A stretch of DNA of 64,000 nt, taken from contig JAIYAQ010000012.1 in assembly GCA_027488975.1 (NCBI GenBank), forward strand, positions 124,001 through 188,000, written 5' to 3'. Numbering within the stretch: position 1 is the stretch's first letter; the number at the start of each line of letters is the position of its first letter. This DNA is from Cyanobium sp. E1_MAG_00006. Lineage in GTDB: Bacteria; Cyanobacteriota; Cyanobacteriia; PCC-6307; Cyanobiaceae. The position numbers and the translations under genes are program-made. Positions 45,147-49,277 of this stretch are shown in pieces. Under the pieces are notes generated by a model. That model worked only from the letters and a program-made list of their open reading frames with translations, did no database searches and had not been told where the DNA came from.

Positions 45147-45305
45147 GTGAACGACAACCATCCCGTGCTCCAGGCCATGTGTCATCAGCTGGATGAGCTG
45201 AAGCACCTCTACCAGCACCAGCCTTCCGACTTCAACCGCTATCAGTTGGTTCGCCAGGAGCAGCGCCTGGCCCAAGTGCGTCCCGACGCGCTGTTGAGCC
45301 TCTGA
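45147..45305 (+). CDS. small soluble helical protein
   Basis: 52 residues from GTG 45147: NDNHPVLQAMCHQLDELKHL, then YQHQPSDFNRYQLVRQEQRL, ending in DALLSL. A strongly helical amphipathic pattern without stops in a short gap, six bases before the PPC-glutaredoxin gene. Probably cotranscribed with it. No family recognised. Confidence 0.55.
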   Translation: MNDNHPVLQAMCHQLDELKHLYQHQPSDFNRYQLVRQEQRLAQVRPDALLSL

Positions 45306-45311
45306 GCGGGC

Positions 45312-45893
45312 ATGCACGCGGCGGCCATCCACCTCAGCGCCGGCAGCGACCTGCGCCGCAGCCTTGAAGAGCTGAGCCGCCAGCACAACGCCAGCGGCTT
45401 CGTGCTGAGCGTGGTGGGCAACCTCAGCGAAGCCTGCTTCGCCTGCCCGGGCCGCACCGCGCCCACGCGGCTGACCGGGGAGCTGGAGATCATCACCTTG
45501 CAGGGCTCCCTCAGCCCGGAGGGGGTACACCTGCATCTCAGCGTTTCCGATTCCGACTGCCAGGTCTGGGGCGGTCACCTGGAGCACGGCAGCCTTGTGC
45601 TCAAGGGAGCCGATCTGCTGGTGGGCTGGCTGACCAGTGAGACCCAGCAGCGGGCAACGCTGCAGGCGAATCCAGGGCATGGCCGGGTCACCATCGCTGT
45701 GGCAGAGGGATGTCCCTGGTCTGCGCGCGCCCTGCGCATGTTGCGCACCCTGCAGATCCCCTTCGAGCAGATCCCAGCGACAACGGGCGGCACCCTGCCA
45801 CAGGTGTTCATCGACGGCGAACCGATCGGCGGCTACAGCGAACTGGCGGAGCTGCACGGCAGCGGCCAGTTGGAGTGGCTGCGGCATGGCTGA
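45312..45893 (+). CDS. PPC (DUF296) domain fused to a monothiol-type glutaredoxin
   Basis: 193 residues, two domains. Residues 1 to about 115 form a PPC/DUF296 domain (SGFVLSVVGNLSEACFACPG, LTGELEIITLQGSLSPEGVH and VWGGHLEHGSLV), a fold also found in AT-hook proteins and some decarboxylases. Residues about 125-193 are a glutaredoxin: active site CPWS (single Cys), TLPQVFIDGEPIGGYSEL for glutathione binding. Monothiol glutaredoxins often carry [2Fe-2S] clusters. The joining of these domains is unusual; a redox-controlled PPC function is an inference. Confidence 0.85.
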   Translation: MHAAAIHLSAGSDLRRSLEELSRQHNASGFVLSVVGNLSEACFACPGRTAPTRLTGELEIITLQGSLSPEGVHLHLSVSDSDCQVWGGHLEHGSLVLKGADLLVGWLTSETQQRATLQANPGHGRVTIAVAEGCPWSARALRMLRTLQIPFEQIPATTGGTLPQVFIDGEPIGGYSELAELHGSGQLEWLRHG

Positions 45894-46470
45894 GGCGCCC
45901 GCCGCCGCCGGCCCGAGCCTGCAGCTGTCCACCCTCGACGGTTGCGGCCTGGTGATCGGCCGTTACCCACGCTTCCGCTACAACGCCAGCGGCGGCGGCG
46001 GCACCAGCGATGCGCGCCTTGATGGCGACAGCGTGCAGTTTCCTCCCGGGCAACTCACGATTCCCCCACTGGACTGGCGCTCCACCCGCTTTCTGGGACT
46101 GCCCCTGCCCCCGGGCCTCTCGATCCGCATCCAGCCCGAGCAGCTGGAGGGCCAGATCGACAGCCACAGCGGTGCGGTGTGCCTGCGTTTCCGCGCGCGC
46201 TTCCGCTTTCGGATCCAGCTGGGAGCAACTGAGCTCTACCAGGCCCCGGATCTGCTGGTGGACACCGAGCTCCGCAGCGACCGCTGCCAGGGCCGGCGCC
46301 ATCGCGCCAGCGGCCGATCCCTCGATGGCAGCGGCGCGGCACTGCTGGTGGGCGTAGCCACGGTGCCGCCTTGCGGGGATGCCTGGCTCGACCGCTTCCT
46401 CGGCCTGCCGGATGAGGCCCTGGCGGTTCTGCGCTGCAGGATCACGAGCGTGGCGGAACAGCCGGCATGA
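45886..46470 (+). CDS. hypothetical beta-rich protein
   Basis: 194 residues from the ATG at 45886, overlapping the previous gene by eight bases. The sequence alternates short strands (LQLSTLDGCGLVIGRYPRFR, SIRIQPEQLEGQIDSHSGAV and CLRFRARFRFRIQLG), suggesting a beta sandwich or barrel. No membrane helix or signal peptide. Its stop overlaps the rhomboid start by four bases, so it is in the same operon. Confidence 0.7.
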   Translation: MAEAPAAAGPSLQLSTLDGCGLVIGRYPRFRYNASGGGGTSDARLDGDSVQFPPGQLTIPPLDWRSTRFLGLPLPPGLSIRIQPEQLEGQIDSHSGAVCLRFRARFRFRIQLGATELYQAPDLLVDTELRSDRCQGRRHRASGRSLDGSGAALLVGVATVPPCGDAWLDRFLGLPDEALAVLRCRITSVAEQPA

Positions 46471-47783: not shown

Positions 47784-49277
47784 GTGGGCTTCTTCGTCCA
47801 ACTCACTGAAGCCATCGCCGAGCGCCAGTCGCTCCTGATGACCGGGCTCGACCCGAATCCGGAGATGCTGCAGAGCTGGGCGCAGCGCCGCGGCATGGCC
47901 AACCGCTCCTTCCTCAGCCAGGCGCGCCACTGGATCAAGGCGGTGGTGGAGGAAACGAGCCCCCACGTCTGCGCCATCAAGGCCAGCCTCGGCTTCTACC
48001 AGGCCCTGGGTCCGCTCGGCCTGGAACTGCTGCTGGAGGTGCGCGACCTGGTGCCGCGCGATCTGCCGCTGATCATCGATGCCAAGCACGGCGACCTCAA
48101 CTCCTCCACCGCCCTCGCTCACTACCTCTTCAAGGATCTGGGAGTCGATGGGGTGACCCTCTCGCCGCTGGCCGGGCAGGACATCGCAGCACCGTTCCTG
48201 CTCTACGCCGACAAGGCCGTGGTGATCACCTGCCGCAGCTCCAACCCGGCGGCCAAGCGCATCCAGTACCACCCCAGTGAGGCTGATCCGCTGTTCCTGC
48301 AGATCGTGCGCGAATGCCAGCTGTGGGGCACGCCCGATCAGCTGCTGCTGGAGGTGGGCACCAGCGATCCTGACGTGCTGGGGCTGGTGCGGCAGGCCGC
48401 ACCGGAGCGGGTGCTGATGCTGCGCAGCATCTGGAGCGAGGAGGAGCGGCTTGATGGGCTGCTGCAGGCGGGGCTGAACCCGGCGGCCGATGGCCTGCTG
48501 TTGCCGCTGCCGCAGAACCTCCTGGTGGAGGACGATCTGGGCCCCAAAGCCGAGGCGCTCAAGGCGATGATCAATCGCCGGCGCCAGCGCTGGCTGGATC
48601 AGCAGGGGCAGGAGCAGGCCGAGAGCTGCGCCGTGTGGCTTCCTGATGCCTCAGGTGCCGGCGACGCCGGCAGCAGGGAGCCGGCTGCCGATCCCCTCGA
48701 GAGCCTGATCGTCGACCTGTTCGACATCGGCTGCCTGCTGTTCGGCGAGTACGTGCAGGCCTCGGGAGCCGTTTTCAACTACTACATCGACCTGCGCCAG
48801 ATCATCTCCGACCCGAACCTGTTCCATCGCGTGCTGCACGCCTACTGCGGCCTGTTGGAGCAGCTGAGCTTCGATCGCATCGCCGGCATTCCCTACGGCT
48901 CGCTGCCCACCGCCACGGGGCTGTCGCTGCAGCTGCACAAACCGCTGATCTACCCACGCAAGGAGGTGAAGGCCCACGGCGCGCGCCGCCTGATCGAGGG
49001 CGATTTCAACGAGGGCGACACGGTGGTGGTGGTGGACGACATCCTGATCACCGGCGGCAGCGTGCTGGAGGGCATCGGCAAGCTGGAGAGCTCGGGGCTG
49101 GTGGTGCAGGACGTGGTGGTGTTCATCGACCATGGCGGCGAACGCGACCGCCATGCCAGCGAGCGGCTGGCGGGGGCGGGCTACCGCACCCATGCCGTGC
49201 TCGACATCGCCCGCATCACCCGTGTGCTGGTGGGGGCGGGCCGGCTGACGCCGGAGCAGGCTGCGGCGCTGGGTTGA
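47784..49277 (+). CDS. fused OMP decarboxylase - orotate phosphoribosyltransferase
   Basis: 497 residues, UMP synthase with the order PyrF then PyrE. The decarboxylase part (1 to about 275) has the catalytic D-x-K-x2-D set Asp99, Lys101, Asp104 in IIDAKHGDLNSS. A variable linker follows, and the phosphoribosyltransferase part (about 305-497) has the PRPP motif VVVVDDILITGGS. It converts orotate to UMP in one polypeptide. The order is opposite to animal UMPS and known in some cyanobacteria and kinetoplastids. Confidence 0.92.
   Translation: MGFFVQLTEAIAERQSLLMTGLDPNPEMLQSWAQRRGMANRSFLSQARHWIKAVVEETSPHVCAIKASLGFYQALGPLGLELLLEVRDLVPRDLPLIIDAKHGDLNSSTALAHYLFKDLGVDGVTLSPLAGQDIAAPFLLYADKAVVITCRSSNPAAKRIQYHPSEADPLFLQIVRECQLWGTPDQLLLEVGTSDPDVLGLVRQAAPERVLMLRSIWSEEERLDGLLQAGLNPAADGLLLPLPQNLLVEDDLGPKAEALKAMINRRRQRWLDQQGQEQAESCAVWLPDASGAGDAGSREPAADPLESLIVDLFDIGCLLFGEYVQASGAVFNYYIDLRQIISDPNLFHRVLHAYCGLLEQLSFDRIAGIPYGSLPTATGLSLQLHKPLIYPRKEVKAHGARRLIEGDFNEGDTVVVVDDILITGGSVLEGIGKLESSGLVVQDVVVFIDHGGERDRHASERLAGAGYRTHAVLDIARITRVLVGAGRLTPEQAAALG

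Follow-up and report, generated by a model that had tools for sequence, protein, structure and literature searches.

The locus described here raises two questions: whether a PPC (DUF296) domain and a glutaredoxin (Grx) are genuinely joined in a single cyanobacterial polypeptide and, if so, what a glutaredoxin may do when it is tethered to such a partner. The gene lies in a 64,000-nucleotide stretch of contig JAIYAQ010000012.1 of Cyanobium sp. E1_MAG_00006, referred to below as the window; positions are those of this stretch, and the fusion gene with its sub-features, as well as the three neighboring ORFs, are located on the forward (+) strand.

A Genuine Two-Domain Protein

The fusion gene (45312–45893; ATG at 45312, TGA at 45891–45893) encodes, in one stop-free frame, a protein of 193 aa. 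The first-pass annotation, made from the letters of the sequence, had described a single frame composed of a PPC-type half and a glutaredoxin half, and this was confirmed by Pfam: residues 5–100 (45324–45611) matched the PPC/DUF296 domain PF03479 (74.3 bits, 1.3e-20, gathering score of 25 exceeded) and residues 126–154 matched PF00462 (27.7 bits, 3.2e-6, gathering score of 22.9 exceeded). Judged by Pfam, alignment, and fold, the whole glutaredoxin domain spans residues 124–192 (45681–45887) and has no helix separating strand 2 from the cis-Pro. Its active site, CPWS (Cys134–Ser137, 45711–45722), was read from the translation and the family alignment, and the earlier observation that solely the first Cys is present holds for the window protein. 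In a sequence search of the PDB, the first half matched PPC structures (2p6y, 2.8e-15) and the second half matched E. coli Grx3 (4.9e-6). The nearest solved structures were 2p6y for the PPC body (Z 19.8) and glutaredoxins for the Grx body (4mje, Z 10.2), the Grx half giving Z of about 10 against Grx structures.

The AlphaFold model of the fusion (59 sequences) had a mean pLDDT of 89.4 and a pTM of 0.58, with a pLDDT of about 51 in the residue block 111–120. This block belongs to a weakly predicted linker (residues about 111–123, 45642–45680), which is also variable among the relatives. The protein is thus modeled as two confident domains with a weak linker between them and without a fixed mutual placement.

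In the class sample described below, 64 stop-free ORFs with both halves were found. A sequencing error joining two genes, considered during the first pass, is ruled out by these 64 single frames in family relatives, and the PPC-Grx fusion is genuine, not an artefact.

Neighboring Genes

As initially described, the neighbors of the fusion gene in the window abut or overlap. A 52-aa ORF (45147–45305) is located just upstream, a 194-aa beta-rich ORF with no Pfam or NCBIfam match (45886–46470) overlaps the end of the fusion gene by 8 bases, and a 190-aa ORF of the rhomboid family (PF01694; 46467–47039) overlaps the 194-aa ORF by 4 bases. The suggestion that these genes form a small redox operon failed in the comparison of 114 loci, as their homologs (counted when present within the same fetched locus) accompanied the fusion in only 8, 62, and 17 of them, respectively. 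In the marine group of loci, the fusion gene has a different, convergent neighbor; the clustering of neighboring ORFs, which shadow ORFs in the high-GC sequence made less clear and in which the fused gene was picked in only 58/114 loci, was relied on for this group only. There is no conserved redox operon, and the arrangement is local only.

That the 194-aa gene recurs close to the fusion deserves mention. This gene swaps side and strand relative to the fusion among the loci, and within 145 sampled genomes it was present in 7 of 14 belonging to the window's family and in none of 131 outside it. A separate observation concerns positions 47784–49277 of the window, where a 497-aa frame combines an OMP decarboxylase-like part, scoring just below the Pfam cut-off, with a phosphoribosyltransferase part behind it, i.e., a PyrF-PyrE-like fusion.

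Distribution of the Fusion

The 60 nearest genomes include 37 from the window's family, and 26 of these (the window's own counted) have the full-length fusion, the remaining 25 full-length copies showing 45–65% identity; a repeat search again revealed no full-length match in the other 11. An even sample of the class (388 genomes) gave a sharp boundary: all 64 genomes of the same family encode the fusion, compared with none of the 324 genomes of other families, where each match is confined to one half, either PPC or Grx. Among other members of the phylum, the fusion was present in 1 of 59 genomes, and that one is from the window's own family.

A wider search of the family, covering genomes of 95% or more completeness, indicated the fusion in 200 of 222 genomes (judged by an E-value of 1e-50 or better, not every match being itemized), with the best E-values of the other 22 between 2.7e-31 and 8.2e-10. 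The latter group consists of G004, G007, G461, G462, G463, G482, G483, G487, G495, G500, G523, G552, G560, G570, G601, and all seven genomes of genus g9 (G032 and G580–G585), whose best matches are short and, in G032, confined to the Grx half. Two of the fusion-less genomes (G463 and G560) are single-contig and 99% complete. The view of the fusion as a universal core gene of the family, which the even sample might suggest, was therefore rejected; because these 22 genomes have no full-length match, the fusion is common but dispensable.

Named loci carrying the fusion include those of Synechococcus, Cyanobium, Prochlorococcus, Vulcanococcus, Aphanothece cf. minutissima, and uncultured cyanobacteria, and the gene is present even in genomes of 1.6–1.7 Mb. 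One further locus (L099), titled 'MAG: Bifidobacterium breve', holds a picocyanobacterial fusion gene (57% identity) and represents a mislabelled bin. Since the fusion was found in 64/64 and 200/222 family genomes versus 0/324 others, it is a vertically inherited trait dating back to the ancestor of the picocyanobacterial family, with scattered losses. Judging by the names of the loci, this family is taken to be Cyanobiaceae.

A phage origin was also considered and rejected, as the whole fusion was found in none of 50,697 phage records (in seven records just one of the halves has a match), and of 40 pattern matches in viral contigs not one codes for a relative. It was observed separately that cyanophages S-TIM5, S-TIM54, S-TIM61, and S-TIM66 carry a Grx-like stretch (matching residues 125–180) within the annotated large subunit of ribonucleotide reductase (NrdA).

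Class VI glutaredoxins, which we take to be the DUF296 fusion, were reportedly defined by Couturier et al. in 2009. A paper from 2013 cites, in its accessible text, six glutaredoxin classes, of which class VI is limited to cyanobacteria (PMC3816324). In the available part of another study, Alves et al. (2009) list a DUF296-GRX architecture specific to bacteria, whose two domains and their order agree with the window protein, and propose DNA binding (PMC2679010). The PPC-Grx architecture has therefore been known since 2009. Those authors speak of a Grx of the 'CPYC class', whereas the window protein and most of its relatives have CPxS, with CPWC/CPYC in 22 of 64; the accessible portion of their paper makes no mention of the PPC cysteines, the range within cyanobacteria, or the loss of a helix. 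The first-pass annotation had stated that many cyanobacterial entries with this architecture and a known function would count against its view. The entries do exist, the architecture being widespread, whereas a known function was not found: no functional study of the fusion protein (expression, biochemistry, mutant) was found in the open-access literature. What is added here is the sharply bounded range, three fixed cysteines, a three-histidine site common to both kinds of PPC, and the helix loss in the window's group.

The PPC Half and Its Putative Metal Site

Three histidines of the PPC half, His73, His75, and His89 (45528–45578), form a putative metal site, in line with the fold matches. 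They are present in all 64 fused proteins and, together with D13, G36, and E59, in all 44 rows of PPC without Grx used for comparison (43 distinct genes, L027 and L191 being one gene of G047; these are the best-scoring part of the class-sample matches plus four nearest-genome loci, a subset of the PPC genes in the class). The rows derive from other families and from paralogs in fusion-bearing genomes, and five of them (L028, L185, L187, L210, and L213) are from genomes with PPC in frame behind a GlmU-like enzyme. The latter is a different PPC fusion, in which PPC follows, in one frame, a hexapeptide-repeat sugar nucleotidyltransferase resembling GlmU (L028:31–1974, G039); it was also found in G064, G078, G103, G114, and G146, six of the eight tested genomes of family f4 having most of its length and three of the six rows counting stops inside the matched range.

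The bacterial PPC/DUF296 proteins of known structure (2p6y, 2hx0, and 2h6l) share with the fusion the PPC fold, the three histidines, and Glu59, but they lack the Grx as well as C45 and C83. One of these fold matches, AF0104 (2h6l), contains metal. The PPC half also matched acetolactate decarboxylase 6j92 (Foldseek 2.3e-4, Z 9.7), and this is a match of fold alone, without a Pfam or other sequence match in the searches of the fusion protein. PPC and the acetolactate decarboxylase/PTD012-type enzymes constitute one structural superfamily (SCOP), the members of the latter group being, however, larger enzymes. According to the accessible text of the source, PTD012 holds Zn on three His and has a fold related to acetolactate decarboxylases (PMC12435205), and the PPC fold is described, in the part of the paper available, as forming trimers (PMC4209074).

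The conserved three-histidine site probably holds a metal. Since the histidines are kept, 2h6l is metal-containing, and the fold matches a decarboxylase, a metal-dependent ligand or enzyme site in the PPC half seems more plausible than a contact with DNA. No settled function for prokaryotic PPC/DUF296 proteins was found in the open-access literature.

Three Invariant Cysteines and a Proposed Tethered Thiol Switch

The alignment of the 64 family fusions (pairwise identity 31–98%) revealed three invariant cysteines, i.e., the catalytic C134 and two in the PPC half, C45 (codon 45444–45446) and C83 (codon 45558–45560). Neither of the PPC cysteines occurs in the 44 rows without Grx, in all of which position 83 is Gly. 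In a set of 80 named loci plus the window (having some species in common with the 64-member set), C45, C83, and C134 were each found in 81/81 sequences, and every other column had fewer than eight Cys. Each of the three sites is encoded by TGC in some members and by TGT in others (TGC/TGT 49/15 for C45, 30/34 for C83, and 27/37 for C134), which indicates that the residue is kept rather than the DNA. Cysteines at other positions do occur in PPC without Grx (residue 94 in 28/44 rows, residue 30 in 17/44); judging by these alignments, what is special is not the presence of a cysteine in PPC but its location at positions 45 and 83. As far as aligned sequences tell, C45 and C83 are specific to the fusion and absent from the 43 distinct Grx-less PPC domains examined. 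Because the fused PPC domains are treated as one clade, the gain of cysteines counts as a single event, not independent of the fusion: one coincidence in time, followed by strict retention. To the extent that the open-access literature was searched, the three invariant cysteines, two of them fusion-specific, are new. Strand pairing derived from the DSSP string suggests that C45 and C83 are not neighbors within one chain.

These observations may be combined into the following scheme. A PPC trimer with a metal-bearing three-histidine site would be the body of the protein, which would have acquired C45 (adjacent to P46) and C83 at roughly the time when a class-I-like glutaredoxin was added to it. 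C83 would sit in the turn between the two strands carrying the histidines. The tethered C134 may then reduce, glutathionylate, or otherwise exchange thiols with C45 and/or C83, within the same chain or across the trimer, and the ligand or metal site of PPC would in this way follow the glutathione/thiol state. The tethered thiol switch, in which the Grx services or senses the PPC cysteines, is supported by the invariance of C45, C83, and C134 and by the occurrence of C45 and C83 only together with Grx, and we regard it as the most likely working idea, with a probability of about 0.42. A far more specific version, namely a self-contained enzyme-substrate switch in nearly all picocyanobacteria, in which the Grx cysteine of each chain cycles both PPC cysteines and turns a histidine-metal PPC enzyme with a zinc-decarboxylase-related fold on and off with the photosynthetic glutathione state, is improbable as a whole.

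The best surviving alternative, which we nonetheless consider doubtful, gives C45 and C83 a structural or metal-binding role within the PPC trimer (e.g., at a second zinc or an intersubunit cluster), with the Grx as an independent passenger acting on other proteins. It would agree with the PPC core and its histidines being present in all rows, with the fold match to zinc-dependent acetolactate decarboxylases, and with the weakly predicted, variable linker; a free passenger, however, would not predict that both cysteines occur only alongside Grx.

The Glutaredoxin Half

The fold of the Grx half, its CPxC/S site, the cis-Pro, and GG are shared with class I glutaredoxins such as E. coli Grx3 and Synechocystis GrxA. 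Among the 64 fusions, Pro at +1 of the catalytic Cys occurs in 63, and the cis-Pro and GG in all; the window protein has these class I marks, with Ser137 in place of the second Cys of a dithiol enzyme. The active sites are CPWS (32), CPWC (21), CPFS (8), CAWS (1), CPYS (1), and CPYC (1), so that a second Cys is present in 22 fusions and Ser is the last residue of the motif in 42. 'Monothiol' describes the window protein, not the family.

Ten of the 64 proteins, including that of the window, represent a short form in which the helix that follows strand 2, ahead of the cis-Pro, is missing; the other 54 keep it. The helix is missing from the AlphaFold model of the window protein and present in that of a Prochlorococcus orthologue (residues 157–167). 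Loss of the helix as one event was not upheld by a quick tree of the PPC columns, which asks for at least two changes, and for two in the case of the second Cys, although these numbers are weak given the few columns and long branches. Moreover, none of the fusions has Lys at −3 of the catalytic Cys (Leu in 52, Arg in 4). The short forms differ from class I glutaredoxins in the helix and in this Lys, which E. coli Grx3 has. The stand-alone CPFC Grx of the window genome has no Lys at −3 either, and the lost Lys was accordingly rejected as a mark peculiar to the fusion.

The Lys at −3 is described as a glutathione activator, and a Lys-deficient Grx was reported not to accept GSH (PMC7138851, accessible text). 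Together with the helix loss in 10/64 proteins, its lack could mean weak glutathione chemistry. A second alternative builds on this: the Grx half would have decayed into a sensor or docking module that binds glutathione and has little oxidoreductase activity. It would apply above all to short forms like that of the window, which have lost the helix carrying part of the glutathione scaffold. The invariance of C134, the cis-Pro, and GG speaks against such decay, as do the equally Lys-free CPFC Grx of the same genome, the 54 proteins that keep the helix, and, for the Lys itself, the four cases of Arg; we find this reading unlikely.

A third alternative takes up an idea of the first-pass annotation: a monothiol Grx would bind a [2Fe-2S] cluster, here with glutathione as a ligand, and the cluster would regulate the PPC half. 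The step from monothiol to cluster was not sustained, as a second Cys occurs in 22/64 relatives and the +1 Pro in 63/64; according to the part of the literature source available (PMC8161271), substitution to Pro at this position impaired cluster binding by human GLRX2 and poplar GRXC1. The same text names CrGRX2 and TbGRX1 as CPYC exceptions that do bind clusters, and CPxS in 41/64 fusions and CAWS in one might be read in favor of a cluster, but the C30S variant of CrGRX2 (CPYS) had none (PMC8161271). Furthermore, none of the 64 fusions has the class II motif CGFS, and the NCBIfam Grx4 model scored 19.3 bits on the window protein versus a cut-off of 117.1. Because of the Pro at +1 and the terminal Ser in 42 proteins, a classical iron-sulfur cluster appears to be the less likely reading, and cluster-based control of PPC is quite improbable. 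In the original proposal of redox or iron-sulfur control, the redox part remains sensible and is strengthened by the two fusion-specific cysteines, whereas the iron-sulfur part is not favored.

The assumption that PPC binds DNA turned out to be unsupported. The term 'DNA-binding' for PPC structures is a label on structural-genomics entries, and in plant AHL proteins, according to the accessible text, it is a separate AT-hook with an Arg-Gly-Arg core that contacts DNA (PMC4209074); no such RGR core was found in the 193-aa translation. A redox-controlled DNA-binding regulator, as proposed by Alves et al. for DUF296-GRX (PMC2679010, available part) and in keeping with entries named 'Putative DNA-binding protein', is thus very improbable, given the absent AT-hook core, fold neighbors that include metal enzymes, and no test of DNA binding by a prokaryotic PPC found in the open-access literature.

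Significance for Picocyanobacteria

The fusion is present in 200 of 222 sampled genomes of the family, including Prochlorococcus and marine Synechococcus. Its three invariant cysteines and three histidines make a built-in thiol switch testable by point mutants and, if the two domains prove to interact, the PPC fold could gain its first defined redox function.
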